Of a stretch of DNA of 37,807 nt, positions 775-25,931 are shown piece by piece. This stretch comes from Tannerellaceae bacterium (GTDB lineage Bacteria > Bacteroidota > Bacteroidia > Bacteroidales > Tannerellaceae), in NCBI GenBank assembly GCA_031271045.1, contig JAISWO010000023.1, positions 1-37,807 on the forward strand, read 5' to 3'. A program made the position numbers and the translations under genes. Every line of letters begins with the position of its first letter. Within the stretch, counting starts at the first letter, position 1. Below the pieces are notes generated by a model. That model saw only the letters and a program-made list of their open reading frames with translations. It was not told where the DNA came from and did no database searches.

Positions 775-812
775 GAAAATAATACTCCTTAAAATTTTTC
801 AAATATCCTAAA

Positions 813-1913: not shown

Positions 1914-2044
1914 ATATTTGTCCGTAATTGTTTAAAATAGGGAGAATGAAAATAAGTGCGTCCAATTATATAGAGACAGCTCAAATTCAAACGAGAATCA
2001 TCAGTATTAACCTATTAATTTTTCAGGACGAGACTAAAATATTC

Positions 2045-2322: not shown

Positions 2323-2347
2323 ATTCAGATTATATAAGATAGGTTAT

Positions 2348-3583: not shown

Positions 3584-3600
3584 AATACACAAGTAAAAAT

Positions 3601-4434: not shown

Positions 4435-4453
4435 CAGATTAAATTTTGTTGAA

Positions 4454-6330: not shown

Positions 6331-6363
6331 ATATTCGTTATGATTTAGCTTTATGTGATAAGA

Positions 6364-9688: not shown

Positions 9689-9736
9689 CTCCCCTGCATC
9701 GGCGTAACTCGGCCGGGTGCAGGGGAGGGTTTTTTT
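9689..9736. terminator. Bidirectional intrinsic terminator closing the polysaccharide locus
   Basis: A perfect 10-bp inverted repeat (CTCCCCTGCA at 9689-9698 with TGCAGGGGAG at 9718-9727) is followed by a run of seven T at 9730-9736 and preceded by AAAAA at 9682-9686. It can therefore stop transcription from tktC on the + strand and from the DUF6261 gene, whose stop codon touches it, on the - strand. Confidence 0.9.
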
Positions 9737-10989: not shown

Positions 10990-11331
10990 CAGGGGGAATT
11001 ATATTCCAGTATGGACGCTCCCGCAAATTGCAGGGAGAAATATATTCCAGTATGGACGCTCCTGCAAGTTGCGGGGGGAAATATATTCCAGTATGGACGC
11101 TCCTGCAAGTTTCAGGGGGAAATATATTCCAGTATGGATGCTCCTGCAAGTTGCAGGGGGAAATATATTCCAGTATGGATGCTCCTGCAAGTTGCAGGGG
11201 GAAATATATTCCAGTATGGACGCTCCTGCAAGTTGCAGGGAGAAATATATTCCAGTATGGACGCTCCTGCAAGTTGCAGGGGGAAATATATTCCAGTATG
11301 GATGCTCCTGCAAGTTGCAGGAGGAAATATA
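10990..11331. repeat. 41-bp tandem repeat array, eight full units, palindrome in each unit
   Basis: Eight contiguous units of exactly 41 bp start at 11004, 11045, 11086, 11127, 11168, 11209, 11250 and 11291, with a partial unit at each flank (10990-11003 and a few bases from 11332). Each unit reads TTCCAGTATGGAYGCT, then the 15-bp palindrome CCTGCAAGTTGCAGG (7-bp arms around a central G), then GGGGAAATATA. Units differ at only a few sites (C/T in GGAYGCT; occasional changes in the palindrome of units 1-3), which implies recent expansion or homogenisation. The array fills the intergenic space between the divergent DUF6261 and DUF4783 genes. Because 41 is not a multiple of three and the consensus unit has no stop in any frame, long open frames cross it on both strands; they are not treated as genes. 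Confidence 0.97.
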
Positions 11332-11413
11332 TTCCGATATAGGCGCCGGAGCCGGCAGCCGGGCGTCCGAACATAAGGGAAAGGGATTCAAAATATAAAT
11401 TTGTGTCGTAAAG

Positions 11414-11444
11414 TTGCTAAACTGGTATTTTTTGTTGACCTTTG
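11414..11444 (+). promoter_or_regulatory. Candidate promoter of the DUF4783-nadC operon
   Basis: A TTG at 11414-11416 and GACCTTTG at 11437-11444 are separated by 20 bp, close to the Bacteroidetes pattern TTTG-N19-21-TAnnTTTG with one mismatch in the -7 box. The ATG of the first gene is 29 bp further on. The 41-bp array ends about 80 bp upstream. Confidence 0.5.
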
Positions 11445-11473
11445 CGCTTATTTACTTTAAAACAGGGTAGATT

Positions 11474-11845
11474 ATGGCACGAATTGTATTCTTTTTAGCT
11501 GCTGTCTTTTCTTCTTTATTTGCACAGGCGGTTGATGTAAGTCCTATATCTGCTACATTCAGGGCCGGGAATGTGGCGCCTTTGGTTACTCTTATGGATC
11601 AGGAAGTCGATATAGCTATCCCCGGTGCAACGAAGAAATGCAATGCGGACGAAGCTGTGGCATTGCTTAATTCTTTTCTCCGTTCCAACAAGCCGTCTGA
11701 TTTTACAACGCTGCACAATGCGGATAAAAAAGATAACGGCTTCTTAGTTGCCAAACTGCTGACCTCGCAAGGGGAATTTCGCGTAAACATTACCTATCGT
11801 ATCGGAAATGAAAAAATCATTATCCAATCCGTACGAATCGAATAA
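11474..11845 (+). CDS. DUF4783 domain-containing secreted protein
   Basis: The 123-residue product starts with a clear signal peptide (MARIVFFLAAVFSSLFAQA, cleavage likely after AQA), followed by a small alpha/beta domain of about 100 residues. The segment DVSPISATFRAGNVAPLVTL and the later VNITYRIGNEKIIIQSVRIE fit DUF4783, a small NTF2-like family found in Bacteroidales. Function is unknown. The protein should be periplasmic. It ends 10 bp before the nadC start, so the two genes are probably co-transcribed; this pairing is, as far as I recall, common in the order. No catalytic residues can be named. Confidence 0.8.
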   Translation: MARIVFFLAAVFSSLFAQAVDVSPISATFRAGNVAPLVTLMDQEVDIAIPGATKKCNADEAVALLNSFLRSNKPSDFTTLHNADKKDNGFLVAKLLTSQGEFRVNITYRIGNEKIIIQSVRIE

Positions 11846-11855
11846 AACAAGCAAC

Positions 11856-12698
11856 ATGAACCATTTGATTGATGAATTGATCCGCTTGGCCTTTGCCGAA
11901 GACATCGGCGGGGGCGACGTGACGACATTGTGCTGTATCCCGCCCTCGGCCACAGGCAAGAGCCGGCTGATCATTAAAGAAGACGGCGTACTGGCCGGCG
12001 TGGAAACAGCCGGGCGCATCTTCCGGCATTTTGACCCGGAACTGAAGATGACCGTCTATATAAAGGATGGAACCGAAGTGAAACCCGGCGACGTCGCTTT
12101 CACTGTAGAAGGGAAAATACAATCATTGCTCCAAACCGAACGCCTGGCGCTGAACGTGATGCAACGGATGAGCGGAATTGCCACCACGACGCGCCGCTAC
12201 GTAAAAGAACTGGAAGGAACGCATACCCGTATCCTGGATACGCGGAAAACCACGCCCGGAATGAGGATGCTCGAAAAAGAAGCCGTACGCATCGGCGGAG
12301 GCGTGAACCACCGCATCGGACTGTTCGACATGGTACTCCTGAAAGATAATCACGTAGACTTTGCCGGAGGTATCCCGCAAGCCATCGCCTGCGCCCGCCG
12401 CTACCTGGAAGAAAAAGAACTGAACCTGAAAATAGAAATCGAAGTACGCAACTTCGACGAACTGGAACAAGTCCTCGAAACCGGCGGCATAGATCGTATC
12501 ATGCTCGACAACTTCAGTATAGAAAATACGCGCGAAGCCGTCCGCCGCATTGCCGGCCGCTACGAAACCGAATCCTCCGGCGGCATCACGTTCGATACCC
12601 TGAAAGCATACGCCCAGACAGGCGTCGATTATATATCCGCAGGCGCCCTCACCCATTCGGTGAAAAGCCTCGACATGAGCCTTAAAGCCGTTCAATGA
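11856..12698 (+). CDS. nadC: Nicotinate-nucleotide diphosphorylase (carboxylating)
   Basis: NadC converts quinolinate and phosphoribosyl pyrophosphate to nicotinate mononucleotide, CO2 and pyrophosphate in de novo NAD synthesis. The 280-residue protein shows the family motifs in order: [11 protein letters not shown] near the N-terminus, [21 protein letters not shown], the long substrate-binding stretch with [18 protein letters not shown] and [20 protein letters not shown], then [15 protein letters not shown] and IMLDNFS in the barrel. Length is normal. An upstream in-frame start at 11808 would overlap DUF4783 and add non-homologous residues, so ATG 11856 is chosen. Its stop overlaps the dut start (ATGA), so the two are translationally coupled. 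Confidence 0.97.
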
Positions 12699-13132
12699 TG
12701 AAAGTCCGAATCGTAAACAAATCCCATCACCCCTTCCCTTCCTATGCCACCCCCTTGTCGGCAGGAATGGATATTCGCGCAAACCTTACAGCGCCCGTCG
12801 TCCTCCGTCCCCTGGAACGGAAACTAATCCCTACCGGACTTTATATCGCCCTCCCCGAAGGCTATGAAGCGCAGATGCGTCCGCGAAGCGGCCTGGCGCT
12901 GAAACATGGCATCTCGCTGCTCAATACCCCCGGAACGATTGACGCGGATTACCGGGGAGAAATCGGCATTATCCTCGTCAACCTCTCTTCCGAACCTTTT
13001 ACGGTGAACGACGGCGAACGAATCTGCCAGATGATCGTCACTGCTCATGGCCGCGTAGAATGGGAACCGGTAGAAACACTGGACCAAACACAACGGGGAG
13101 CCGGAGGCTTCGGACATAGCGGCTATCATTAA
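12695..13132 (+). CDS. dut: dUTP diphosphatase
   Basis: Dut hydrolyses dUTP to dUMP and pyrophosphate, which keeps uracil out of DNA and supplies dTMP synthesis. The 145-residue trimeric-type enzyme shows the five motifs: AGMDIRAN (I), [11 protein letters not shown] (II), [12 protein letters not shown] (III, with the catalytic Asp and Tyr), the ICQMIV region (IV) and [11 protein letters not shown] (V, the glycine-rich tail that closes over the substrate). The ATG overlaps the nadC stop. A second ATG follows at once at 12698 and would give 144 residues. Same operon as DUF4783 and nadC. Confidence 0.97.
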
Positions 13133-13164
13133 TTTCAGTACTTTTACTGCATAATTCGGATCCA

Positions 13165-14895
13165 ATGAATAATAATAACCGACACATTGCCAGGCAAGCG
13201 GCGCTGATATCTCTCTGCTTACTCCTTTTTATAAATGCCCAAGGGCAAGACGCGAAAGAGAATCGGAAGTTTGACTACTTCTTCTACGAAGGGCTGAATC
13301 TCAAAAATGCAGGCAAATATGATGCCGCCTTCGAACTATTTACCCATTGCTTAGCCATCGACTCCACCTCTGCCCCGCTTTTGTATGAGTTATCTTCTTT
13401 TTACCTGCAACTGGACCGGCCGGACAAGGCGGTTGAAATGCTCAAGGGAGCTGTACGCTACGGCGCCGGTAATTTTACGTATAAAATGACCCTGGCTACC
13501 ACCCTGCGCAACCTCGGAATGTATGGCGAAGCCGTAGAAGCATACGAAGAACTGATCGCCGGCTATCCAATGAAAATGGAACTCTACTACTACCTGGCCG
13601 ACGCCTTGACGCAGGAAGGCGAAATCGGCGACGCCATCCGCGCTTATGATACCCTCGAGTCGATTACAGGAATGAATGAAGGCATCTCTATGCAGAAATA
13701 CAGACTGTACAGCCTGCTGGAAGAACCGGAAAATGCCTTTAAGGAAGTAGAGAAGCTCGCCGGCAAATTCCCGATGGAGGCGAGATACCCCATTATCATC
13801 GGCGACTTGTATCTGGAAAAAGGGAAAACGCAGGAAGCCTACGAATCCTACCGGAAAGCCTACGCAATCGACTCCGAAAACCCCTATTACATCGTTGCCA
13901 TGTCCAACTATTACGAGGCAATCAACGATAAAGAGGCGGCCGAAACACAGATACGCACCGCATTGGTGAAAGATAACTTAGACATAGAAACCAAAGTAGC
14001 CATCCTCTCGCGCTACATCCTCCGCCTGCAACAGTCGCAACGGGGAACCGAAAATGCCGCAACCCTCTTCGAAACCCTCATCGGACAGCATCCCGAAAAG
14101 ACAGAACTCCGACTCATGTATGGAGCCCTCCTGGTAGCAAACGGAAAGACAGACGAAGCCGGCTTCCAATATCAATTAGTGACAGAAATGGAACCGGCCA
14201 ACGCCGGCGCATGGCAACAACTGCTCGATATATCCCTCAAAAAACAAGACAGCCAAGAGGTCATCCGACTTTGTACCCGCTGCATCGAACTCTTCCCCGG
14301 AGCCTCCGAATATTACTTCTACTTAGGCATTGGCTACTTCCAGGAACAAAACTATGACAAAGCCCTGGAAGTCTACAACGAAGGTCTCCGCATCATACCG
14401 TCCGACAACAAACAGCTCCTCTCTACCTTCTACGCGCAGATAGGCGATATCCAACATCAGGCCGGACAACCGGAAAAGGCCTATGAAGCCTACGAAAAAG
14501 CCTTGGAACTGAACGATAAAAATATCCTGGTGCTGAATAATTACGCCTACTTCCTCTCCTTGGCCAACAAGGACCTGAAGAAGGCCGAACGTATGAGCGC
14601 TCAGTGCATCAAATTAGAACCCGACAATGCAACCTACTTAGATACCTACGCCTGGATATTCTTCAAGCAAGGAAGCTATACGCTGGCGAAGTTCTACATT
14701 GAAAGCGCCCTGAAAAAAGACGATACCCAAAGCCCGGAACTGCTCGATCACTATGGCGATATCCTCTTCCTCTCCGGAGAGGAGGAGGAGGCCGTCATCC
14801 AATGGGAGAAGGCCCGGGAAAGAGGCAAGAAAAGCGACGTGTTGGACCGTAAAATAAACGAAAGAACCTATATCGAAGACCCCAATGCAAAATAA
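13165..14895 (+). CDS. Tetratricopeptide repeat protein, secreted
   Basis: The 576-residue product has an N-terminal hydrophobic signal (about residues 9-27, ending near INAQGQ) and then a long series of TPR helices, for example FDYFFYEGLNLKNAGKYDAA and AYEAYEKALELNDKNILVLN. The repeats cover nearly the whole mature protein. TPR domains bind protein partners. The neighbours (a LolA-like DUF4292 lipoprotein and an EnvC-type hydrolase activator) point to an envelope role in the periplasm or at the outer membrane. The final 11 bp overlap the next gene, so these genes are probably expressed together. No enzymatic domain is visible. Confidence 0.88.
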   Translation: MNNNNRHIARQAALISLCLLLFINAQGQDAKENRKFDYFFYEGLNLKNAGKYDAAFELFTHCLAIDSTSAPLLYELSSFYLQLDRPDKAVEMLKGAVRYGAGNFTYKMTLATTLRNLGMYGEAVEAYEELIAGYPMKMELYYYLADALTQEGEIGDAIRAYDTLESITGMNEGISMQKYRLYSLLEEPENAFKEVEKLAGKFPMEARYPIIIGDLYLEKGKTQEAYESYRKAYAIDSENPYYIVAMSNYYEAINDKEAAETQIRTALVKDNLDIETKVAILSRYILRLQQSQRGTENAATLFETLIGQHPEKTELRLMYGALLVANGKTDEAGFQYQLVTEMEPANAGAWQQLLDISLKKQDSQEVIRLCTRCIELFPGASEYYFYLGIGYFQEQNYDKALEVYNEGLRIIPSDNKQLLSTFYAQIGDIQHQAGQPEKAYEAYEKALELNDKNILVLNNYAYFLSLANKDLKKAERMSAQCIKLEPDNATYLDTYAWIFFKQGSYTLAKFYIESALKKDDTQSPELLDHYGDILFLSGEEEEAVIQWEKARERGKKSDVLDRKINERTYIEDPNAK

Positions 14896-15733
14896 ACCCC
14901 ATATACGACCCCAAACCATCTCCGCGCTAAGCCTGCTCCTGCTCTTGCTCGCCCTTGCAGGATGCAGGACGTCGAGGACGGTCGCCGTCAGGGAGGCAAA
15001 CGTCAGCAAAGAAGCCGAAGCCTTTTTCTTCTCTGTCCGCAAGCAGGCCTTTCACTACCGCACGCTCTCGGCCAGGACGCGGGTTGAACTCAATCTCCCC
15101 GGGAAGGAACTCTCCTCAAGGGTCGACATACGGATGATAAAAGACAGTGTCTTCCAGCTCTCCGTCCAGCCATTCGCCGGAATAGAAGTCCTCCGGGTGG
15201 AGTTCGGTATCGACAGCGTGAAAGTGATCGACAGGATGAACAGACGCTATGTGCTCGAAAGTTACGCCGACCTGAAAGAAGCGGTGCCGGTCGGCTTCAA
15301 CTTCTACAACCTGCAAGCCCTCTTCACCAACCAGATCTTTATCCCCGGCGAACGGGAGATTACCCCCATGCAATACGGGCGCTTTACGCTCGAACAAGAC
15401 CGGGCGGCTACCCGGGCCAGGATCAGCGACGCGATGAAACTGCTCTATGCCTTCACCGCAGACGGCGAAGAGAAACTGCTCTCTACCAACGTCGCCGATC
15501 CCTCGGATCATTACCTCCTGCAATGGCAGTACAGCGACTTCCGCCTGATGGAAGAACAAACCTTCCCGATGCACATGGAAGCCAAGCTGCTTCGCGACGG
15601 AACACCGGCCGGGGAGATGAACCTCACCTTCTCGCGCATACAGCGCGACGTCCCCGTAGTGGCCTCCTTCCCTATCCCCGAAAGGTATAAACGCATTACC
15701 TGGGCGGAAATCATCAAAGGGCTCGGATCGTGA
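14885..15733 (+). CDS. DUF4292 domain-containing lipoprotein
   Basis: The 282-residue protein starts with a lipoprotein signal: a leucine-rich core then LALAGCRTS, with the lipobox cysteine near residue 27. The mature part is beta-rich and matches the Bacteroidetes DUF4292 family, thought to be related to the LolA/LolB fold that binds lipid acyl chains. Signature stretches include FHYRTLSARTRVELNLPGKE and QPFAGIEVLRVEFGIDSVKV. It overlaps the TPR gene by 11 bp and is 11 bp before the EnvC-like gene. A part in lipoprotein or lipid handling at the outer membrane is an inference from fold and context. Confidence 0.85.
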   Translation: MQNKPHIRPQTISALSLLLLLLALAGCRTSRTVAVREANVSKEAEAFFFSVRKQAFHYRTLSARTRVELNLPGKELSSRVDIRMIKDSVFQLSVQPFAGIEVLRVEFGIDSVKVIDRMNRRYVLESYADLKEAVPVGFNFYNLQALFTNQIFIPGEREITPMQYGRFTLEQDRAATRARISDAMKLLYAFTADGEEKLLSTNVADPSDHYLLQWQYSDFRLMEEQTFPMHMEAKLLRDGTPAGEMNLTFSRIQRDVPVVASFPIPERYKRITWAEIIKGLGS

Positions 15734-15744
15734 ACCATTGAAAG

Positions 15745-17031
15745 ATGAGGAGATTTGTCTACATAGCGCTGTGCCTGATGGCCGTCCTGACGGTTTCCGC
15801 CCAGAAATCGGCCAAGGTGAGGGAACTCGAAAACCAACGGAAGGCCGCCCTGAACGAAATAGAACTCGCCAACCGCCTACTGGCCGAAACCAACGAGTCG
15901 GCCCGCAATTCCCTCAACCGCCTGAATCTCCTCTCCCAACGCATCCGGCAACGCAGGCAGGTCATCTCCCTGCTCAACCAGGAGGTCAACCTTATCGACA
16001 AAGAAATCATCGGCATACGCTCCGAAATAACCTCACTCGAAAAAGAACTCAGCGCCAAACGTTCCAACTACGGCGCCTCCGTGCAAAAACTGCAACGGCA
16101 TTTTACCGCCCAGGACAAACTGCTCTTCATCTTCTCGGCGCAAGACTTCTCACAGTCCTTCCGCCGGATGCGATACCTGCGCGAATATGCCGGCTGGCAG
16201 AAAAAGCAGGCAACCGAAATATCCGAAAAGCAGCAAATAGTCAAAGCCAAGTGGGAAGAACTCGAGAAAACCCGTAGCGAGAAACAAACCCTCCTCCAAT
16301 CCCGCGAACAGGAAACCCGAACCTTGGAAGAAGAAGAAGCCGCCCAACAGAAAGAGATCAACGAACTGAATAAAAAACAACAACGCCTCCAGGACGACCT
16401 CAAAAAGAAACAACGTCAAGCCAACGCCCTCAACCGGCAGATCGAACAACAAATCGCCGAAGAAGTGGCCAAAGCCGAAGCCGAAGCTCGAGCCGCTCGC
16501 GAACGCGAAGAGAGAAGCAAAGAAACCGCCGCCAAAGCCAAAGAGGCCGAAAACAAACGCGTAGCCGACAGCAAAGGCGGATACGCGATGACGAGAGACG
16601 AAAAACGCCTCTCCGACAACTTTGCCGCCAACCGCGGACGGCTGCCGGCTCCCGTTACCGGCGCATACTCCATCACCGGACTCTACGGCGAGCAGCAGCA
16701 CCAGGACCTTAAGTACGTCCGCATCGTCAACAACGGTATCGACATCCAAGCCACTTCCGGCGCCGATGCCCGCGCCGTATTCAACGGCAAAGTAACCACC
16801 ATCTTCGTCCAGCCCGGATACAATAATTCGGTCATCGTCCGCCACGGCAATTACCTGACCGTTTACAGCAACCTGAGCGAAGTTTACGTCAAGCAGGGCG
16901 AAGAAGTAAAATCCGCCCAGCCCCTCGGTAAAATATATACCGACAGCGAGAACGACAACGCCACCATCCTCCACTTCGAACTCTGGAAAGAGCGACAAAA
17001 ACAAAATCCCCAACCCTGGCTAAGGCGATAG
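15745..17031 (+). CDS. EnvC-like murein hydrolase activator (degenerate M23/LytM domain)
   Basis: The 428-residue protein has a signal peptide (MRRFVYIALCLMAVLTVSAQ), a long charged coiled coil from about residue 20 to 280, and a C-terminal LytM/M23 domain of about 120 residues. The zinc ligands of active M23 enzymes are not all present: the HxxxD position reads NNGID, and the HxH region reads YSNL where active enzymes have YxHL, although LHFELW is kept. This pattern matches EnvC and NlpD-type proteins, which activate amidases during septum splitting instead of cutting peptidoglycan. It is the last gene of the DUF4783-nadC operon and is followed by a 44-bp palindromic element. Confidence 0.9.
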   Translation: MRRFVYIALCLMAVLTVSAQKSAKVRELENQRKAALNEIELANRLLAETNESARNSLNRLNLLSQRIRQRRQVISLLNQEVNLIDKEIIGIRSEITSLEKELSAKRSNYGASVQKLQRHFTAQDKLLFIFSAQDFSQSFRRMRYLREYAGWQKKQATEISEKQQIVKAKWEELEKTRSEKQTLLQSREQETRTLEEEEAAQQKEINELNKKQQRLQDDLKKKQRQANALNRQIEQQIAEEVAKAEAEARAAREREERSKETAAKAKEAENKRVADSKGGYAMTRDEKRLSDNFAANRGRLPAPVTGAYSITGLYGEQQHQDLKYVRIVNNGIDIQATSGADARAVFNGKVTTIFVQPGYNNSVIVRHGNYLTVYSNLSEVYVKQGEEVKSAQPLGKIYTDSENDNATILHFELWKERQKQNPQPWLRR

Positions 17032-17032
17032 C

Positions 17033-17076
17033 TTGTGACGCGCCTGGTCATAACGCTATGACGCACCTGGTCACAA
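17033..17076. repeat. 44-bp palindromic intergenic element, copy A
   Basis: This element lies between the convergent EnvC-like and TolC-like genes. Outer arms TTGTGAC (17033-17039) and GTCACAA (17070-17076) and inner arms GTCATA (17047-17052) and TATGAC (17057-17062) are perfect inverted repeats around ACGC. The two 7-bp middle stretches (GCGCCTG and GCACCTG) are near-direct repeats and do not pair with each other. There is no T run, so it is not a classic terminator. Copy B at 30901-30944 has the same length and geometry. Confidence 0.85.
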
Positions 17077-17113
17077 CACCATGCTGTGCCTTGATAGATG
17101 TTTCTCCGTTAAA

Positions 17114-18457
17114 TCAGAGGGTAATAGGTCTGCCGTTGTAGAAGTCCAGAATCTTGCTCCGGAAGATGAAATCGTATTTGGCTTGTACCTGCTCGGAGAG
17201 GCTTTGTGCGTATTTGGTCTTCGATTCGTTGTACTCGAACGCTGTGCTGCGGCCCGTAGCGTAGCGCTCTTCGGCGTATTTAAAGGCTTCGCGGCCGGCT
17301 TCGACCGACTCGGTGGAGGCGGCGTACTTCTCACGCGCGGCAACGGCATTGAGGTAGGCTTGCTGTATCTCCTTGTAAAGCACCTTCTTGGCGTTCTCTA
17401 CGCTCAGCTCCTGCGAAAGGATGCCGGCGCGCGCCGTGCGTACGTTGTTGCGCACCTCAAAGCGGCTGAAGATAGGGATGCTGAGGCTAAGGCCGATGGT
17501 CTTCCGTTCGTTTTGCCTCAACTGGTCGCTGAAGGGGACGTTGCTGATGTCGCCGGCTCCGGAGTAATGATAGTAGCCATTGCTGTAACTCAGGTTGAGG
17601 TTGAGCTGGGGGAAATAGCCTGCCCGGGCGACCTGGAGCATTCGCCGGCGGCTGTCGAGCAGGAGTTCCTGCTCCCTTATCTGGGGCTTGAGGGCGACGG
17701 CATTGGCATAGACGGCGTCCGGCATGGGAATGTCGGTGGTCGGCCCGGTGGAGGGATCGGGCAGGATGGGGGCGGCGATGTCGAATCCGGCGTCGCTGCG
17801 CTCAAGCTCCAGCAATTGGGCCAGGTTGAGCAGGGAGAGTTTGACGTTGTTGCGGGCTTCGGTGCGGGTGACTTCGTCCTTGGCGCGCTGTGCGCGAATG
17901 TCGTAGAGCTGCGAGAGGGGGACTTTGCCGGCTTCCACGAGGGCCTCCGTCCGCGTGACTTGCTCGCCGGTAAGGGCGATCTGAAGCTCGGCAATGTTCA
18001 GTATCTCCTTGTTGTAAAGCGCTTGCAGGTAGTAGGAGGTGATGCTGATGGCCAGGTCGTCTTTGGCCTTGTGGAGGGATTCGATGGCGGCCTGGAGGTC
18101 CAGCCGCCGGGCGGCGATGGTGTGTGGGATCCGGAAGCCGTCGAAGAGCGGCATATTGGCTTGCAGGTAGGCCGACGAATTGGCCGAGTTGCGGTCTACG
18201 ATCACCCCGTCCTTCGAGGGCGAGCGGCCGAAGTCGAAGTTCTGCCCCATCCCGGCGTTCAGGTTCGGCAGCCAACTGTTGCGGGCGGTGTTTGCTTCGA
18301 TCTCGCGGGTCTCCTGCTCAAGGAGGCGTTGTTTGAGGTCGATATTGTTCTCGGTAGCGTGTCGGACACATTCTTCCAGCGTCCAGAGGTGGTCCTGTGC
18401 TTCGGCAGCGAGGCTGCAAAGGAGGCCGATAAGGGGTAGGTATTGTTTCACTTTCAT
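17114..18457 (-). CDS. TolC family outer membrane efflux protein
   Basis: The 447-residue product has a signal peptide (MKVKQYLPLIGLLCSLAAEA, cleavage near EAQ) and the two OEP repeats of TolC-type proteins. Examples are LEECVRHATENNIDLKQRLLEQ near residue 35 and the second-repeat start YANAVALKPQIREQELLLDS near residue 230. It would trimerise into the outer membrane channel of the tripartite pump encoded upstream. The gene is the last of the operon. It starts 20 bp after the membrane fusion protein gene, which confirms its partners. Substrate is unknown. Confidence 0.93.
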   Translation of the reverse strand: MKVKQYLPLIGLLCSLAAEAQDHLWTLEECVRHATENNIDLKQRLLEQETREIEANTARNSWLPNLNAGMGQNFDFGRSPSKDGVIVDRNSANSSAYLQANMPLFDGFRIPHTIAARRLDLQAAIESLHKAKDDLAISITSYYLQALYNKEILNIAELQIALTGEQVTRTEALVEAGKVPLSQLYDIRAQRAKDEVTRTEARNNVKLSLLNLAQLLELERSDAGFDIAAPILPDPSTGPTTDIPMPDAVYANAVALKPQIREQELLLDSRRRMLQVARAGYFPQLNLNLSYSNGYYHYSGAGDISNVPFSDQLRQNERKTIGLSLSIPIFSRFEVRNNVRTARAGILSQELSVENAKKVLYKEIQQAYLNAVAAREKYAASTESVEAGREAFKYAEERYATGRSTAFEYNESKTKYAQSLSEQVQAKYDFIFRSKILDFYNGRPITL

Positions 18458-18477
18458 GACTTTGCGGCTTGTGGGGA

Positions 18478-19605
18478 TTATTCTTTCTTCTTATTCGGGT
18501 CGATCACTGCTCCGCGTATCTTGTCGGCGGCGGCGAGGCCTTCTTTGATCTCTATCTTGATGCCGTCGGAGAGGCCGGTCGTTACCGGATGCCGCTCGAA
18601 GATCTGTTCCGGTGTTTCCTGCCGGAGGACTTGCACGAAGGCCGAATCGCCGTGAAACTCAACCGTACTTTCGGGTACGGTCAGTACGTCTTCGGCCCGC
18701 TTGAGTACGATCTCGGCATTGGCGCTGTATCCGGCGCGGATGAAGGCGTCGCCGGGGATGGAGATAGCGGCTTTGATTTCAAACTGTATGGCGCCGTTCT
18801 TATCGACTCCCTTGGGCGATACGTACTCCAGCGTCGCGTCGAAGATGCGGCTCTCCATGGCGCCGATCGTCAGCTTGATGGGCATCCCTTCGTGGATGCG
18901 GCCGATCTCGGTCTCGTCCACATTGCCCCGGAAGATCATATCGCTCATGTCGGCCACCGAGGCGATGGTCGTCCCTTCGTTGAAGTTGTTCGACTGTATG
19001 ACGGAGTTACCGACCTTCACCGGCACGTCGAGTATCATCCCCGTGATGGTGCTGCGTATCTGCGTCGTGCTGGTCACCTTCGAGTTGCGGGTGATCCCGT
19101 CGCGGATGATCTCCAAAGCATTCTGGGCGTTGGCGTATTCTTCTTTTGCCTTCAGGTAGTTGGCGTTAGAGGCATTGAACTCTTCTTTCGAGACAACGCC
19201 CTGGGCAAAGAGCCGTTCGTCGCGCCGGAAGGTCTCCTCGATTTGCTGAAGGGTGATCTGCGCCAGGTTCACGCGCGACTCGGCGCTGTTGAGCTGTACC
19301 ATCTCCGGTATCACCTTGATGCGTGCCAGGATCTCGCCTTCCTTCACCATTTGTCCGGCTTCTTTCTGTAGCTCGGAGATGATGCCCGATATCTGCGGTT
19401 TAATCAGCACTTCGTACCGGGGTTCTACGCTGCCGGTGGCCACCGTCTTGGTTTCTACCGTATCGCGTGCCGGCGTCACGATCTCGTAGACGGTGACAAC
19501 CGGTTGCGCTTTCTTCCACAGAAAGTAAAACGTGCCGAGCACGGCTACTCCTACAAGCGACAACAGGGTGACGCGGAGTATCTTCTTAAAAATGCGATTC
19601 TTCAT
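18478..19605 (-). CDS. Efflux periplasmic adaptor (membrane fusion protein, MacA/HlyD type)
   Basis: The 375-residue protein has an N-terminal membrane anchor (residues about 12-30, VTLLSLVGVAVLGTFYFLW). A lipoyl-like half motif follows (GSVEPRYEVLIKPQISGIIS near residue 60), then an alpha-helical hairpin (roughly 95-175), the second lipoyl half (RSTITGMILDVPVKVGNSV) and beta-barrel domains. The C-terminal segment around AEDVLTVPESTVEF is typical of MacA-like adaptors. It bridges the inner-membrane ABC permeases and the TolC-like channel encoded on either side. It begins 24 bp after the second permease. Confidence 0.93.
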   Translation of the reverse strand: MKNRIFKKILRVTLLSLVGVAVLGTFYFLWKKAQPVVTVYEIVTPARDTVETKTVATGSVEPRYEVLIKPQISGIISELQKEAGQMVKEGEILARIKVIPEMVQLNSAESRVNLAQITLQQIEETFRRDERLFAQGVVSKEEFNASNANYLKAKEEYANAQNALEIIRDGITRNSKVTSTTQIRSTITGMILDVPVKVGNSVIQSNNFNEGTTIASVADMSDMIFRGNVDETEIGRIHEGMPIKLTIGAMESRIFDATLEYVSPKGVDKNGAIQFEIKAAISIPGDAFIRAGYSANAEIVLKRAEDVLTVPESTVEFHGDSAFVQVLRQETPEQIFERHPVTTGLSDGIKIEIKEGLAAADKIRGAVIDPNKKKE

Positions 19606-19629
19606 GTTTCTATGCGTTGTTTAAATGAA

Positions 19630-20898
19630 TTATTCTTCACGTATGGCGTCGATGGCCTTGATCTTCATGGCCCGCCAGGCAGGTATCAGCCCCGCCAGCA
19701 GCCCCGCCAGCAGCAGCACGACGGTTGCCGCCACGGCAGTCTGTATACTTACCGAGGGATGGGCAAAGAAGACTTCGCCGGAGTCGGCCGGAGCCGGCTG
19801 GGCCATCAGGATACGGTCCACCACGTCGAGGATAAATACTCCCAGACTGAGTCCCAACAATCCGGCCAGCGCAGTGAGGACGAGGCTTTCGCTCATCACC
19901 TGCGAGATGATATTGAAGGGCTTGGCGCCCAGTGCACGGCGTACGCCGATCTCTTTGGTTCGTTCCTTGATGGTGACCATCATGATGTTGCTCACGCCGA
20001 TGATGCCGGCCAGGAGGGTCCCCATGCCTACGAGCCAGACTAAGATGTCGATGCCGGTAAAGAGGTTGTTGAACGTGGCGAACTGCGCCGCCAGGTTGAT
20101 AATGTTTACGGCCTGCGGATCGGAGGGGGCTATTTCGTTCTGTCGCTTCAGTACCGCCGTCACGTCGTCGAGCACTCGTTGCACGGAGGCCTCCGGCAGG
20201 ATGTTGATGAAGAGCAGGTGGATAATGTCGCCCTGGTTGGTGACCTGCTGAAGGGTGGAGAAGGGAATAAATACCGACTCGGAGGTTCGCCCGTTGATAT
20301 TGATGCCCGTCGCCTTCGAGTTGGTCACGCCGACCACCTGGTAGTATATGCCGTTCACGCGGATATACTTGCCGCAGGGGTCTTCGTCCCGGAACAGCGC
20401 TTCGTTGACGGCCGTTCCGATGACGCAGACTTTCCGTTTGCCTTGTATGTCGATCTCATTGATGAGTCTTCCGTACTGGAGGTTTTGTGCGTCGATCTCG
20501 AAGTATTCCGGCAGGATGCCTTTGATGCTGAACATGCCTGTCTGCAAGCGGAAGGAGACGTTCTTGTCACTTCTCCCGCCGGTCAGGAAGGGGGAGACGT
20601 GTTTGATGCCTTCTACTTCTTCCTTAATGGCGGTTACATCGCGGTTTCGCATATACCAGTAGCGTCCTTTGTTGAAGCCTTTGTAGGGTTCGCCGGTACG
20701 GTCGGCTATGAAGAAGACGGTGTTGGTGGCAAAGCCTTCGAGATTGCCCAGCAAGCCGGTCTTCATTCCTACGCCCGACCCCAGGAGGAGCACCAGCATC
20801 AGGATGCCCCAGAAAACGCCGAAGCAAGTCAGCAGGCTGCGTGTCTTATTGCGGGTGATGGTGGCCCATATTTCTATCCATCTGTCGATATCGAACAT
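19630..20898 (-). CDS. MacB-type ABC transporter permease
   Basis: The 422-residue protein has one N-terminal membrane helix (about residues 22-42, LLTCFGVFWGILMLVLLLGS), a large periplasmic MacB core domain (about 45-280) and three C-terminal helices of the FtsX type. The conserved cytoplasmic loop reads ERTKEIGVRRALGAKP, and the end reads IPAWRAMKIKAIDAIREE. Unlike MacB of Escherichia coli there is no fused ATPase, which is encoded by the first gene of this operon. It is the second of two different permeases, so the transporter is probably a heterodimer with mechanotransmission from ATP hydrolysis to the periplasm. Confidence 0.93.
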   Translation of the reverse strand: MFDIDRWIEIWATITRNKTRSLLTCFGVFWGILMLVLLLGSGVGMKTGLLGNLEGFATNTVFFIADRTGEPYKGFNKGRYWYMRNRDVTAIKEEVEGIKHVSPFLTGGRSDKNVSFRLQTGMFSIKGILPEYFEIDAQNLQYGRLINEIDIQGKRKVCVIGTAVNEALFRDEDPCGKYIRVNGIYYQVVGVTNSKATGININGRTSESVFIPFSTLQQVTNQGDIIHLLFINILPEASVQRVLDDVTAVLKRQNEIAPSDPQAVNIINLAAQFATFNNLFTGIDILVWLVGMGTLLAGIIGVSNIMMVTIKERTKEIGVRRALGAKPFNIISQVMSESLVLTALAGLLGLSLGVFILDVVDRILMAQPAPADSGEVFFAHPSVSIQTAVAATVVLLLAGLLAGLIPAWRAMKIKAIDAIREE

Positions 20899-20942
20899 CC
20901 TTTTCGTTGCAGGTTACGAGGTGATCATTGTTCACTAATTGA

Positions 20943-22229
20943 TTAATCGTTGCGTATGGCGTCGATGGCTGAGATCTTGACGGCTTTGCGGGCCGGGAAA
21001 TAGCCTGCCAGTACGCCGGCGATGATCAGTACGCCGGTGGCAGCGAGCGAGATGCCCAGGTCTACCGTCGGATGGCGGAAGACGGTGGTGTTGCCCATGT
21101 CTCCGCTTCCGCCGTTATCGGGGGCGGCGTTGGCGCCGGTCATATCCATGATGTAGTCAACGCCTTCGGCCAGCCCGATGCCGCCCACCATGCCGATGTA
21201 TCCAAAGACGGACGTCACTAAGACGGACTCGATGATGATCAGGCTCAGGATGGATGATGGCTTGGCGCCGATGGCCTTACGGATGCCGAACTCTTTGGTG
21301 CGTTCGCGTACGGTGATGAGCATGATGTTACTTACGCCGACGATGCCGGCCATGAGCGTTCCGATGCCGACGATCCAGATGAAGAAGGCGATGCCGTTGG
21401 TCATGCCTTTCCACATCCTGAACTCTTCGCCGGCGCTGTAGAAGCCGATGGCGTTCAGGTCGTCGGGGCTGAAGCGGTGGCGGTATGCCATGCGTTTCTT
21501 CAGTCGTTTCTCGAAGGCTTCGGCCTGTGCTTTGGTATTGACGCCTTCGATGGTGAAGACGATCTCGGACACCTGGTAGCCGTCGTCGAAGAGCATCTGC
21601 CCGGTTGTAAAGGGAATATAGGCCGGCGAGCTGGTAGCTTTGTTCTCATCTTCGTAGATACCGATCACTTGGTACATGCCGCTGCCTACACGGACGTATT
21701 TGCCTACGGGTTCGATCGAGTCGCGGAAGAGAACGGTGGCCATGCGCGGGCTGATGACGATCACTTTCCGGCGTTCCTTCAGGTCTATGGCGTTGATGAA
21801 GCGTCCGTTGCCGGCATTCACCGGTACATAATGGATCATGCAGTAATCGGGGTAGACGCTTCGTATCTGCCCGGTGAGATACTCTTTGTTGTAGGAGAGC
21901 GTGTCGTTGCGGGTATTCACGGGGGAGATCAGGTTGACTTCGGGGTGATACCGTTTGACGTCCGTCACGTCGTCGATGTTGAAGCGGATGCGCCGGTTGG
22001 TGGGCAGGCCTTGCCAGGGCTGACTGGTGGAGCGCGTCCAACATTCGCAGAAGTTGGTTGAGATGTTGCGGAAGTTGTACCCGATGCCATTGCTCAGCCC
22101 GTTGCCGGCGCTCAGCAGGACGATGAGCATGAAGATGCCCCATGTGACGGAGAAGCCGGTCAGGAAGGTACGGAGCTTGTTCTTCTTCATCGTGCTCCAT
22201 ATCTCCTGGATGTTGTTGAACTCAAACAT
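20943..22229 (-). CDS. MacB-type ABC transporter permease
   Basis: The 428-residue protein has the same architecture as the downstream permease: a first helix near residue 20-42 ([20 protein letters not shown]), a periplasmic MacB core and three C-terminal helices. The coupling loop reads [18 protein letters not shown], and the C-terminus reads [19 protein letters not shown]. The two permeases are clearly homologous but diverged, so they fit a heterodimer. Its first 8 bp overlap the end of the ATPase gene. A gap of 44 bp separates it from the next permease. Confidence 0.93.
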
Positions 22230-22908
22230 GGTGGGGAACTTTTTCGATGCGTTCGATGAGGCCGTCTTTCAGGCGGATGATGCGGTCGGTGACGGAGGCT
22301 ACTGAGGATTCGTGGGTGACGATGATCACCGTCATGCCTTTTTTGTTTACCTGTCGCAGGAGCTGCATGACCTCCACCGTCGTGACGCTGTCCAAGGCGC
22401 CGGTTGGTTCGTCTGCCAGGACGACGCGGGGCTGGGCAATCAGGGCGCGAGCAATGGCGACGCGCTGCTTCTGTCCGCCGGAGAGTTCGCTGGGCAGGTG
22501 TTCGGCCCAGTCGGCAAGGCCGACCATGTCGAGGTATTCCATGGCGACGGCATTGCGTTTCTTGCGTTTCATTCCCTGGTAGTAGAGCGGAAGGGCGACG
22601 TTCTCGAGGGCATTCTTGAAGGAGATCAGGTTGAAAGATTGGAAGACGAAGCCGATCATCCGGTTGCGACATTCGGCGGCGCGGCTTTCGCTCAGGTCGC
22701 GGATCAGGAGTTTGTTCAGATTGTACGTGCCGCTGTCGTATGTGTCGAGTATGCCGAGTATGTTGAGCAGCGTGGACTTGCCTGAGCCGGATGCACCCAT
22801 GATGGATACCATTTCGCCTTCTTCGATCTCAAGGTCTATGCCTTTGAGGACGTGCAGGGGCGCTCCATTGTGGTAGGTCTTATGAATGTCTTTCAATTGG
22901 ATTATCAT
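22222..22908 (-). CDS. ABC transporter ATP-binding protein (MacB/LolD type)
   Basis: The 228-residue ATPase has Walker [12 protein letters not shown] near residue 40, the Q-loop region in [11 protein letters not shown], the signature [15 protein letters not shown] near residue 140, Walker [13 protein letters not shown] and the switch histidine in VTHE. It powers the two permeases encoded directly downstream. A longer frame opens at 22944, but ATG 22908 ([15 protein letters not shown]) is chosen because it begins at the first conserved strand and the extra residues lie in the candidate promoter leader. It is the first gene of the five-gene efflux operon. LolD-like use in lipoprotein release is a less likely alternative, given the adaptor and TolC partners. 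Confidence 0.95.
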
Positions 22909-22941
22909 CGTCGTTTCGTTTGTTATCTTACTGTATAGACG

Positions 22942-22949
22942 CAAAGGTG
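22942..22949 (-). promoter_or_regulatory. Candidate -7 element of the efflux operon
   Basis: On the minus strand the bases read CACCTTTG, one mismatch from TAnnTTTG in the first position, 34 bp before ATG 22908. No convincing -33 box was found. It lies just after the stop of the ribbon-helix-helix gene, so read-through from that gene is also possible. Confidence 0.4.
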
Positions 22950-22960
22950 CGGAAAATGTT

Positions 22961-23155
22961 TCACTCTTTGTGCGTTTTTTTTGAATTCTCTCCTTTTTGT
23001 ATCCGTCCGGATTTACGCAGGGCTTCGGCGAGAACGTACAGTATCTGTCCGTTGATGCTGCGGAACTCGTCGGCAGCCCATTGTTCGAGAGCCTCCATCA
23101 TGGCGGGGTCGATGCGGAGGATGAATGTTTTGTTTGCTGTGTCCTTTCTGGGCAT
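22961..23155 (-). CDS. Arc-type ribbon-helix-helix DNA-binding protein
   Basis: The 64-residue product fits an Arc-like ribbon-helix-helix protein. A beta strand KTFILRIDP (residues 9-17) is followed by helix A ([13 protein letters not shown]) and helix B ([17 protein letters not shown]). The C-terminal tail is lysine-rich. Such proteins bind DNA as dimers, and the strand pairs into the major groove. The gene follows the SPFH gene by 13 bp and the two are probably co-transcribed. It could regulate its own operon or the efflux operon that starts 53 bp downstream. Targets are unknown. Confidence 0.85.
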
Positions 23156-23168
23156 TCCGGCGGGGAGG

Positions 23169-24149
23169 TTAGTGGTGCAGGGTGCCGGTGTTGAGTACGG
23201 GCTGGGCGGCTTCGTCGGAGCAGAGGACGACTAAGAGGTTGCTTATCATGGCGGCCTTCTTGTCTTCGTCCAATGTGATGACGTTGTCCTTCTCCAGCTT
23301 GTCGAGGGCGAGCTGCACCATGCTGACGGCGCCTTCGACGATCTTTTCGCGTGCCGAGATGATGGCGTCGGCCTGTTGGCGGCGGAGCATGACGCCGGCT
23401 ATTTCGGAGGCGTAGGCCAGGTAGTTGATGCGCGCTTCTACGACTTCGATTCCGGCGATGCTGAGGCGGCTGTTGATCTCTTCTTCGAGCTTGCGCGAGA
23501 CTTCACCGTCGTCGGACCGGAGGGTGATGGTGTCTGAGGCGCCCTCGTGCGAGTCGTAGGCGTACATGCCGGCGATGCGGCGGAGGGCGGCGTCGCCCTG
23601 TATGTTGACGAAGTTCTCGTAGTTCTGCATCAGTTTGGATAGCTTGACCGACGGATCGGCGGCGGCGTAGAGGCTGTTCTTGGTGGCCGATGCGGAGGAG
23701 GTGGTGGATGAGGTGTCGATGTTGAACATGGCCTTGTAAGTGTCTTTTACTTTCCATACCATCACGGCGCCGATCATGACCGGATTGCCGGCTTTGTCGT
23801 TTACTTTGATGGGGGGGAGGTCCAGATTACGGGCGCGGAGGGTGATCTTCTTCCGTTCGTTGAAGGGATTGATCCAGAAGAAGCCGTTGTCGGTCAGTGT
23901 GCCTACGTATTTGCCGAAGAAAACAACGACGCGTGCTTCGTTTGGTTCGATCACCGTCAGTCCGACGATCGTGAGTGGGACCATCAGGCCTCCCAAAGTG
24001 GCGCTTACGGGGAGGATCCATACGGGCAGCTTCAGCCCCAGACCGATTGGTACGCAGAAGCACAGGGCGGCGACTACAAGAATCATAACTGTCAGGGCGG
24101 CGAATCCTGATACTTTTACGCCGGTGAATGTTCTTTCTTTTGTTTCCAT
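23169..24149 (-). CDS. SPFH domain-containing membrane protein
   Basis: The 326-residue protein has two closely spaced hydrophobic segments at about residues 15-38 and 42-68, then an SPFH (band 7) domain starting with VIEPNEARVVVFFGKYVGTL. Helical, repeat-poor stretches follow, including EVVEARINYLAYASEIAGVM and RRQQADAIISAREKIVEGAV. SPFH proteins form ring- or cage-like oligomers on membranes and influence membrane microdomains and protease access. The length is usual for the bacterial slipin/stomatin-like group. Two Bacteroidetes-type promoter boxes lie upstream at 24188-24218, and the 42-bp array lies beyond them. Co-transcription with the small RHH gene is likely. Confidence 0.9.
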   Translation of the reverse strand: METKERTFTGVKVSGFAALTVMILVVAALCFCVPIGLGLKLPVWILPVSATLGGLMVPLTIVGLTVIEPNEARVVVFFGKYVGTLTDNGFFWINPFNERKKITLRARNLDLPPIKVNDKAGNPVMIGAVMVWKVKDTYKAMFNIDTSSTTSSASATKNSLYAAADPSVKLSKLMQNYENFVNIQGDAALRRIAGMYAYDSHEGASDTITLRSDDGEVSRKLEEEINSRLSIAGIEVVEARINYLAYASEIAGVMLRRQQADAIISAREKIVEGAVSMVQLALDKLEKDNVITLDEDKKAAMISNLLVVLCSDEAAQPVLNTGTLHH

Positions 24150-24187
24150 GATAGTAGTTATTTCAGAATGATATTAAAATGATATCA

Positions 24188-24218
24188 CAAAGGAATGGAT
24201 CTTTTCTGAGATTCCAAA
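24188..24218 (-). promoter_or_regulatory. Promoter of the SPFH-RHH operon
   Basis: On the minus strand a -33 TTTG (24215-24218) and a -7 TTCCTTTG (24188-24195, one mismatch from TAnnTTTG) are separated by 19 bp, the expected spacing. The -33 box is part of a perfect 10-bp palindrome CAAACGTTTG (24215-24224), a possible operator. The ATG is about 39 bp downstream. Confidence 0.6.
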
Positions 24219-24312
24219 CGTTTGTGCGTTAATTATGCTTAATGGAGGTTCGTTTGTTATGTTTGAGGCTTTCCGGTGGGAGGCAGGAGGCCGGATGTTT
24301 GTTGTTTATAGT

Positions 24313-24622
24313 CTTGTGGTGACCACAGAGTGGCCAAAAGTAATTATTCTGAATCTTGTGGCGACCACAAGATGGCGAAAAGTAGTTATTCTGGATCTTG
24401 TGGTAACCACAAGATGTCCAACAACTGTCATTTCTTGTTTCTGTTGTGACCACAAACTGTCAAAAAGGCTGATTTTGGTTTCTGTGGTGACCACAAGATG
24501 CCCGATAACTCTTGTTTGTTACTTCTGTGGTGACCACAGAGTATTGAAATTTATTATTTGGAGCTTCTGTGGCGACCACAGGCTATCTATTTGTGTCGTT
24601 TGGCGGCTTCCTGTCGACAACA
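24313..24622. repeat. Diverged tandem array, 7-8 units of about 42 bp with a conserved palindrome
   Basis: The 13-bp core TGTGGTGACCACA (6-bp arms around a central G, often extended to 15 bp or more) or a near copy starts at 24315, 24357, 24399, 24442, 24483, 24526 and 24568, with a weaker eighth copy at 24612. Spacings are 42, 42, 43, 41, 43, 42 and 44 bp. The stretches between cores are similar in the first two units but have drifted in the rest, so the palindrome is the best-conserved part. The array sits between the aminotransferase terminator and the SPFH promoter. The open frames across it show 14-residue periodicity only because 42 is a multiple of three; the frame breaks at 41-, 43- and 44-bp units. 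It is treated as non-coding. The stretch 24219-24312 before it holds nothing recognisable. Confidence 0.9.
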
Positions 24623-24641
24623 GAGGGGTTATATAAAATAA

Positions 24642-24674
24642 TTGAGGCTTTCTCGTCCGGTGAGAAAGCCTCAA
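24642..24674 (-). terminator. Intrinsic terminator of the aminotransferase gene
   Basis: A perfect 13-bp inverted repeat (TTGAGGCTTTCTC at 24642-24654 with GAGAAAGCCTCAA at 24662-24674, 7-nt loop) starts 4 bp after the aminotransferase stop. On the minus strand it is followed by TTATTTTAT. Read in that direction it is a typical terminator. Confidence 0.85.
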
Positions 24675-24678
24675 TGCA

Positions 24679-25896
24679 TCATTGTTGTGGGAAGGATCGT
24701 CGGCAGGCGGTCTTTAATTGCTCCAGGGCTTGCTTCAGTATAGCGCGCGGACAGCCTGCATTGAGTCGCATATACCCCTCTCCGGCTGCGCCAAACATGG
24801 TTCCGTTGTTCAGTGCCAGCCCTGCCTGGTCTTTGAAGAGAGCGACGAGGTCTTTTTGTTTAAGCCCCAGCTCGCGGCAGTCCAGCCAGATCAGGAAGGA
24901 AGCTTGCGGCTGGTAGACTTTGATGGCGGGGAGTTCTTCTTTCAGGTAATGTGTCACGAAGGCGACGTTCTCCATCACGTAGCGGAGCATCTGTTGCAGC
25001 CACTTTGCTCCGTGCGTATAAGCGGCGGTGGTCGCTTCGTAAGCGAAGATCGTTCCCTCGTCCAATTCCCTCGCCCTGAGGAAGGCGAAGAACTTATGCC
25101 GGATGTGTGGGTCGGGAATGACGGCGTACGAGGTGACGATTCCGGCGATATTGAACGTCTTGCTGGGCGCCAGGAAGGTCAAACTGCACGAAGACGCGGC
25201 GTCTGATACCGTGGGGAAGGGGTGATGCGTATGGCCGGGGTAGGTCATCTCGGCATGTATTTCGTCGGATATGACTAAGATGTGATGCCGGGCGCAGATG
25301 TCGGCCAGGCGTACGAGGGTTTCCTTGTCCCAGACGATACCACCGGGGTTATGAGGACTGCAAAGTATGAAGACCTTGCATTGCGGGTCGATGACGGATT
25401 CGAGGTGTTCGAAGTCCATTTGATAGACTCCGTCCACCCATTTCAGCGGATTGTCGACCACCTGCCGGTGTTGCATCTCCGGGACCAGCCGGAAGGGGTG
25501 ATATACCGGCGGCTGGATGATCACCTTGTCTCCCGGCAGGGTAAAGCAGTCGAGCGCGAAGGCGATTCCTTTGACAATGCCCGGTATGTAGCTGATCCAT
25601 TCCTTCCGGGCTTCCCATTGGTGCTTTTGATGCAGCCACGCGAGGATGCTTTGGTAGTAGGCGTCCGGAGCGAAGGTATAGCCGAATACTTCGTGACGGC
25701 AACGTTCCTTTATTGCGTCGACGATGAACTTCGGCGTACGGAAATCCATGTCGGCCACCCAGAGGGGGATCAGGTCGGCGCTCCCGAAACGTTCGTCCAG
25801 CAGGTCGACCTTGAGGCAGTTCGTGTTGTGACGGTCGATAATCTCATCAAAGTTGTAGGCATAAATGTCTGTGTCAGTCATGTTGTTTATGTTCAT
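24679..25896 (-). CDS. MalY/PatB family pyridoxal phosphate-dependent C-S lyase or aminotransferase
   Basis: The 405-residue fold-type I enzyme begins with the PatB-like NFDEIIDRHNTNCLKVDL and contains PLWVADMDFRTPKF near residue 45. The cofactor region shows CSPHNPGGIVWDKETL, the aspartate-containing VISDEIHAEM, and the Schiff-base lysine in LAPSKTFNIAG near residue 235. Members act as cystathionine beta-lyases (cystathionine or cysteine to ammonia, pyruvate and a thiol) or aminotransferases. ATG 25896 is chosen because the next upstream in-frame starts overlap a -7 promoter motif; ATG 25881 is also possible. The gene is monocistronic with its own promoter and terminator. Confidence 0.9.
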   Translation of the reverse strand: MNINNMTDTDIYAYNFDEIIDRHNTNCLKVDLLDERFGSADLIPLWVADMDFRTPKFIVDAIKERCRHEVFGYTFAPDAYYQSILAWLHQKHQWEARKEWISYIPGIVKGIAFALDCFTLPGDKVIIQPPVYHPFRLVPEMQHRQVVDNPLKWVDGVYQMDFEHLESVIDPQCKVFILCSPHNPGGIVWDKETLVRLADICARHHILVISDEIHAEMTYPGHTHHPFPTVSDAASSCSLTFLAPSKTFNIAGIVTSYAVIPDPHIRHKFFAFLRARELDEGTIFAYEATTAAYTHGAKWLQQMLRYVMENVAFVTHYLKEELPAIKVYQPQASFLIWLDCRELGLKQKDLVALFKDQAGLALNNGTMFGAAGEGYMRLNAGCPRAILKQALEQLKTACRRSFPQQ

Positions 25897-25921
25897 GTGT
25901 CTACGTTTTAGTTTCTGTGGC

Positions 25922-25929
25922 CAAAGATA
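25922..25929 (-). promoter_or_regulatory. Candidate -7 element of the aminotransferase gene
   Basis: On the minus strand the bases read TATCTTTG, an exact match to TAnnTTTG, 26 bp before ATG 25896 and directly after the stop of the helicase gene. No -33 TTTG at the right spacing was seen. Confidence 0.5.
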
Positions 25930-25931
25930 CA

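Follow-up and report, generated by a model that had tools for sequence, protein, structure and literature searches.

Two palindromic arrays and their surroundings

The stretch of DNA considered here, referred to below as the window, is a contig of 37,807 nt (C12) from the draft genome of a Tannerellaceae bacterium (2.79 Mb in 74 contigs, 88.5% complete). It carries two intergenic tandem arrays of short palindromes, array 1 and array 2, as the first-pass annotation, made from the sequence alone, had recognised; the spacing is 41 bp in the former and 41–43 bp in the latter. Array 1 adjoins a gene of the DUF6261 family, and the linkage of such arrays to particular gene families is the main new result presented below. 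Relatives of one window protein were found at 15 loci, 13 of them in metagenome-assembled genomes, mostly labelled Tannerellaceae. The features of the two loci are as follows, gene starts here and elsewhere being inferred.

9736..10881, minus strand: DUF6261 (PF19775) gene, 381 amino acids from the likely start, Pfam E-value 6.2e-21
10990-11335, no strand: array 1, a 41-bp unit repeated 8.4 times, with exact or nearly exact CCTGCAAGTTGCAGG in each
11474..11845, plus strand: DUF4783 gene (Pfam), flanking array 1 on the side opposite the DUF6261 gene
23169..24149, minus strand: Band_7/SPFH gene (Pfam), its 5' side toward array 2
24313-24623, no strand: array 2, seven clear TGTGGTGACCACA-type palindromes and one degenerate, centres 41–43 bp apart
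24642..24674, no strand: terminator-like inverted repeat TTGAGGCTTTCTC ... GAGAAAGCCTCAA, noted by eye between array 2 and the aminotransferase gene
24679..25935, minus strand: class I/II aminotransferase gene (Pfam), its 3' end toward array 2

Tandem Repeats Finder (TRF) gives array 1 a period of 41, a copy number of 8.4 and 95% matches. The array is upstream of the DUF6261 gene, approximately 109 bp from its likely ATG (10881). The palindrome CCTGCAAGTTGCAGG is flawless in five of its eight units and carries one, one and two mismatches in the other three, and one of 40 column permutations of the unit yields arms equally long. Exact CCTGCAAGTTGCAGG occurs at 27 sites on six contigs of the genome, all inside arrays with periods of 41 or 42, and on contig C28 the same palindrome is found with its centre switched to C. 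The linkers vary among the groups of CCTGCAAGTTGCAGG arrays, part of the linker being seemingly related when compared by eye. Of 147 genomes, three contain the exact palindrome, namely this one and two with one copy each, and a search of plasmids with the array 1 region returned no match. The site upstream of DUF4783 bears arrays in three species; this was given no weight, because the density of arrays makes coincidence plausible.

The eight palindromes of array 2, with centres from 24321 to 24616, are separated by 42, 42, 43, 41, 43, 42 and 42 bp; the period of 41–44 bp given earlier narrows to 41–43 bp, and the eighth unit is degenerate. A 7-1-7 palindrome with a single G at its centre had been attributed to both arrays. 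In array 2 the palindrome is instead 6-1-6, extending to 8-1-8 and beyond, with TGA, CGA or TAA at the centre, and the copies with C show that the G is not constant in the array 1 palindrome either. Among the linkers of array 2, 15 of 21 pairs fall inside the shuffled range, the palindrome and the spacing being retained. A second array with the array 2 palindrome is located on contig C11 and is linked to a DUF6261 gene; there the linkers are younger, and the shuffled range is exceeded by 6 of 10 pairs. In this C11 array (L050 17685-17917) a linker segment, AACGCTTCATT, seems by eye to recur in inverted orientation (AATGAAGCGTT) one unit further on, as though it had turned over between two palindromes, with an alignment identity of 0.69 inverted against 0.65 direct. 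As a DNA query against 60 genomes, array 2 gave nothing but matches of 21–25 bp beyond this genome. We interpret array 2 as a dispersed relative of an array linked to DUF6261.

A common design of the two arrays had been proposed, with a shared function rather than common descent behind it. Both arrays do follow one design, which recurs widely, and the linkers are lost sooner than palindrome and spacing, in keeping with a shared function in cis. The exclusion of common descent is not supported, as array 1 precedes a DUF6261 gene and the palindrome of array 2 is that of the DUF6261-linked C11 array; arrays 1 and 2 may be positional descendants whose letters have been turned over.

Linkage of arrays to gene families

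When genes adjoining several arrays were compared with Pfam, DUF6261 appeared three times. This family (PF19775) has 40 matches in the 2.8-Mb draft; among 17 same-genus genomes it has 19–44 matches in six and 2–12 in the other eleven, and among 12 genomes of other families of the order one contains a single match. DUF6261 is a strongly expanded family in this and some same-genus genomes. Ten of 11 examined DUF6261 genes have an upstream TRF array labelled 41–42 or 83–85, and the eleventh has, by eye, about 1.7 units of a 41-bp repeat upstream; four of the 11 (on C12, C11, C69 and C51 at 28 kb) lie in stretches chosen for their arrays, the other seven do not. The distance from the array to the likely ATG is 68–315 bp at the DUF6261 genes of this genome, and within 1.5 kb downstream of the 11 genes no TRF array was found. 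For comparison, an array of the ~42-bp class is present in 52 of 456 upstream windows of open reading frames (ORFs) of at least 200 amino acids in the same genome, DUF6261 included.

The linkage extends to other species. Twenty DUF6261 genes from six same-genus genomes were picked before their sequence was seen, and one region (114 bp) was too short to use. An array is present in 12 of the remaining 19 upstream regions, 11 of these arrays belonging to the ~42-bp class or its multiples and one having a period of 22 bp, as compared with 12 of 365 upstream windows in the background of the relatives. By genome, the counts are 4/5 in G005, 3/6 in G007, 2/2 in both G011 and G017, 1/1 in G003 and 0/3 in G002. 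In loci L247 and L261 the array lies 719–957 bp before the start of the DUF6261 domain. The terms relatives and congeners cover the same-genus genomes and loci L058-L072 (records labelled Tannerellaceae, Parabacteroides or Bacteroidia), with a slight overlap possible.

Two further families are accompanied by arrays, each with a period and side of its own. The first comprises genes coding for proteins with HU-DNA_bdg and DUF4469 domains (Pfam), called here HU-DUF4469; in a profile scan of 867 kb each of the five full-length copies is followed on the 3' side by a 22–23-bp array, and one partial match has none. The second, an unnamed family with no Pfam match, has a 21-bp array on the 5' side in five of six profile matches (the member in L130 was scanned against NCBIfam instead of Pfam). 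Both profiles were built from four seeds each, picked beside arrays; the informative point for HU-DUF4469 is therefore that no full-length copy is free of an array. In the congener G011 the sole HU-DUF4469 gene is also followed on its 3' side by an array of 23-bp units. The arrays at L121 and L056 have the core GTTCGGTGTGAAC in common and differ in their symmetric arms.

L054, L056, L118, L121, L041: HU-DUF4469 genes with 3' arrays of 22–23 bp (L041 by profile only)
L041 16586-17275: unnamed-family member with a 5' 21-bp array
L117 5988-6689: unnamed-family member with a 5' 21-bp array
L130 12012-12785: unnamed-family member with a 5' 21-bp array
L131 642-1460: unnamed-family member with a 5' 21-bp array

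In the genes examined, the layout is thus family-specific: arrays of ~42 bp upstream of DUF6261, of ~23 bp downstream of HU-DUF4469 and of 21 bp upstream of the unnamed family. Neither NCBIfam nor PADLOC contained a match for any of four proteins compared (one from DUF6261, one from HU-DUF4469 and two from the unnamed family), nor did PHROGs for three of them; the DUF6261 and unnamed-family profiles matched nothing in PDB and nothing in 144 loci of other genomes (1.56 Mb), and DUF6261 was absent from viral contigs. The HU-DUF4469 profile matches 4fmr, an uncharacterised protein in PDB. A single-sequence structure prediction for DUF6261 reached a mean predicted local distance difference test (pLDDT) score of 34, unusable for fold assignment.

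Periods, symmetry and the slower change of arms

The census of periods covered non-coding arrays of at least 2.8 copies, coding arrays being recognised by a crude ORF rule that misclassed at least one clearly intergenic array (L051) as coding. In 761 kb of the draft, periods of 21–23 or 41–42 account for 38 of 44 arrays, the other six having periods of 12, 46, 83 (two), 125 and 138, and none falls within 24–40. Among the relatives (728 kb), 21 of 22 arrays have periods of 21–23 or 41–44, as do five of seven in samples from the family's other genera and the order's other families (342 kb) and neither of the two found elsewhere in the phylum (311 kb). The density of arrays per Mb is 58 in this genome, 30 in the relatives, 20 in the other genera and families and 6 in the rest of the phylum. 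An additional 106 kb of the genome contains non-coding arrays with periods of 21, 42, 46, 84 (two) and 85, and arrays of 12 (two), 15, 21 and 63 that the ORF rule assigns to coding sequence. Three arrays reach contig ends (L114 6781-6926, L118 1-168 and L129 1-144), so the draft probably breaks at arrays and the array counts are low.

The proposal that the period places every palindrome on the same face of the helix is not supported in its strict form, as periods of 22–23 bp are off phase and the three-turn period of 31–32 bp is absent from the genome sample. Nine non-redundant arrays of period 40–42 contain a second, weaker dyad at half the period (29 pairs as compared with 17.1 expected, standard deviation 3.4; 0 of 500 shuffles). 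The ~42-bp unit may accordingly consist of strong and weak dyads set on a 21-bp lattice, and the lack of three-turn periods would then be accounted for.

A scan of 435 kb of the genome for clusters of palindromes found 15, and none after mononucleotide shuffling. Other palindromes appear among them as well, e.g., TACTGACGTCAGTA every 21 bp, with 22 of 22 exact sites lying within clusters at multiples of 21. In the TACTGACGTCAGTA arrays of L038, L039 and L130 no pair of the palindrome varies more than the central CG, which is replaced by TG or CA, never both, in 11 of 28 distinct units. A test for inverted repeats was applied to arrays of period 18–48, coding-labelled ones included, with consensus arms of at least 6 bp and loops of up to 6; in 867 kb of the genome 24 of 48 arrays contain such a repeat, as compared with 2.0 expected from permuted units, and in the relatives 10 of 25, as compared with 1.3. 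With the inverted repeat picked from the consensus alone, variation is lower in the arm columns than in the remaining ones in 18 of 18 arrays whose arms reach at least 6 bp (Wilcoxon p 8e-6, array 1 being a practical tie; units inside one array are not independent), as against 9 of 22 arrays with shorter arms. It is lower as well in 7 of 8 arrays outside this first test.

These results bear on the possibility that the arrays are mutational satellites, i.e., hairpin-forming units that slip and expand more readily than other sequences and are inherited beside duplicated genes, with no function of their own. In favour of this, the sequences are species-specific, exact copies of the palindrome of array 1 being restricted to 3 of the 147 genomes, and the apparent linker inversion on C11 and the centre flips on C28 are what palindrome-mediated rearrangement could give. 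Slippage alone, however, would homogenise or decay both arms and linkers, and therefore the slower change of arms in all 18 arrays counts against it, as does the survival of the array 2 palindromes and their spacing beyond that of the linkers. One period and one side per gene family are not explained by such a process alone either, and we consider it somewhat unlikely.

The first-pass annotation had also offered tandem RNA hairpins, which in untranslated leaders or trailers would govern the stability or expression of the mRNA. Both strands of array 2 fold far better than shuffled sequences (z −6.65 and −7.57), and six congener arrays have stems of 6–8 bp with loops of 3–5 nt, but any array of palindromes folds well on both strands. 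Mispairs on the strand of the co-directional gene are A.C in 33 cases and G.T in 11, the reverse of what tolerance of G.U pairs predicts (two arrays sharing a palindrome family supply 19 of the 33 A.C, and one of the nine templates, which contributes only to the class 'other', was wrong); in unoriented arrays G.T is found 15 times and A.C 9 times. Within-array covariation is weak; L059 has a single clear compensatory pair and further ones are scattered, the arms being in most pairs too invariant to tell. The window has no Rfam match at gathering scores. RNA hairpins are decidedly unlikely.

The genes on both sides of 42 arrays are in tandem in 15 cases, divergent in 14 and convergent in 4, while 9 arrays, all at the edge of a sampled stretch or contig, have no gene on one side. 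With a background of 168 tandem, 67 divergent and 50 convergent, the excess of divergent pairs is at most mild.

Interpretation and comparison with known repeats

Functional DNA sites seem a better description of the arrays than random repeats. Our preferred reading, which we regard as about evenly poised between right and wrong, assigns arrays 1 and 2 to a class of intergenic palindromic satellites, many of them attached to particular multi-copy gene families, that serve as DNA sites acting in cis while their letters turn over. The palindromes would be sites for a putative dimeric protein, several of them bound together, and binding would tune expression or topology at the adjoining gene; this step from a conserved site to a protein-bound one is what we infer. 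Slippage and unequal exchange would expand the units and swap their letters, with symmetry and spacing kept under selection, so that palindromes would differ between arrays while symmetry and spacing persist.

Several observations weigh against this reading. A DUF6261 gene lies within the set limits of only 10 of 37 long-period arrays, and such a gene is missing at array 2 as well as at related arrays on C28, C37, C60 and C51 (36 kb); in G002 none of three examined DUF6261 genes has an array upstream, and one array in G007 has a period of 22 instead of 42. Similar arrays do exist in related genomes, but half of those in this genome (24 of 48) have no inverted repeat with arms of at least 6 bp, which goes halfway towards the absence of palindromes from other arrays that the first-pass annotation had named as a refutation. 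The arms and linkers of array 1 are equally variable (0.054 each), the arms of one of the eight later arrays (L234 8304) vary more than the rest, and the half-period dyad falls below 0.05 singly in 2 of 9 arrays only. By eye, one genome contains a dozen or so unrelated palindromes, which are ill suited to one binding protein. Moreover, three of four HU-HIG loci, taken as a rough control, hold an array within approximately 1.5 kb; proximity alone is therefore weak in this genome, and the constant side and period and the data from other species weigh more.

A bolder proposal, which we think unlikely, is that the proteins of each family bind DNA and recognise the palindrome array next to the gene they come from, with about 40 DUF6261 protein–array pairs diverging together and the HU-DUF4469 and unnamed-family pairs each keeping a fixed period. 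Such own-array recognition would explain the many unrelated palindromes, the one spacing per family and the tight linkage to genes. Should the preferred reading of cis-acting, family-tied sites be right, bacterial intergenic satellites would include family-specific gene appendages whose symmetry and spacing are kept while their letters are freely replaced, and a first handle would be gained on DUF6261, present in dozens of copies per genome in several of these bacteria. The 22-, 23- and 41-nt repeats of Porphyromonas gingivalis would likewise fall within one framework.

P. gingivalis belongs to the same bacterial order as the source genome, and its BrickBuilt (23 nt) and MITE464 (41 nt) repeats are the closest known counterparts of the arrays. 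According to the available excerpts of PMC4596501, repeats of 22, 23 and 41 nt were noted in strain W83, and BrickBuilt and MITE464/PgRS are tandem repeats of 23 and 41 nt, respectively, in elements resembling miniature inverted-repeat transposons (MITE). The arrays described here share the unit lengths (22–23 or 41 nt) and the intergenic location, and BrickBuilt resembles them further in its many copies and predicted stem-loops (PMC4596501, excerpts). BrickBuilt is, however, one sequence family with a leader, a tail and IS5-like terminal repeats, for which the same excerpts state no gene-family link, whereas the arrays here comprise many unrelated palindromes linked to DUF6261, HU-DUF4469 and the unnamed family; MITE464, compared by description only, is likewise presented as a transposon-like element (PMC4596501, excerpts). 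The arrays might then be passengers of such transposons, in line with the similar unit lengths, intergenic position and copy number (PMC4596501, excerpts). The left flank of the L039 TACTGACGTCAGTA array is repeated over 114–151 bp at L038, L127 and L129 with 87–97% identity, and four related 42-bp arrays have a common flank of about 30–40 bp. In the 761 kb, however, no flank is common to array 1 and its closest relative, on C28, and most arrays with the same palindrome share none beyond coding homology. We rate a passenger origin as highly improbable.

Other known systems were also considered. Clustered regularly interspaced short palindromic repeats (CRISPR) combine a conserved repeat of 23–47 bp with unique spacers. 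In arrays 1 and 2 the conserved core has 13–17 bp and the linkers are alike within array 1 and its relatives, and CRISPR was rejected on these grounds, Cas genes not having been searched for. Isolated copies at other promoters, as in the operator of a regulon, are not seen for the two palindromes examined, all exact CCTGCAAGTTGCAGG and TACTGACGTCAGTA sites being confined to arrays or clusters. Iteron and operator arrays are direct repeats of about two helical turns with dyad symmetry; they differ from the arrays here, which number dozens per genome and have letters differing by family. Repetitive extragenic palindromic (REP) sequences, their mosaic elements (BIME) and the associated transposases (RAYT) offer a likeness in short, species-specific extragenic palindromes in many copies, according to the excerpts of PMC3733652, but the arrays here keep a strict tandem period. 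REP/RAYT was rejected, as the Y1 transposase family PF01797 has no match in the genome at its 88.5% completeness. RNA hairpins, REP/RAYT and CRISPR all fit worse than cis-acting DNA sites.

On such arrays in Bacteroidales the literature search, which subscription papers mostly escaped, returned P. gingivalis work only; the excerpts of PMC5771137 contained nothing bearing on them, full texts under the name DUF6261 yielded nothing beyond Streptococcus work, and no paper was found tying palindromic arrays to DUF6261 or to HU-DUF4469, the latter not itself a search term. It is also worth noting that a 21-bp tandem array occurs in a genome from another family of the order (G207:C85:9469-9747), and that the ORFs in positions 1-9659 of the window, named by eye, resemble a surface-polysaccharide cluster with glycosyltransferases, a sugar transferase and a split transketolase.

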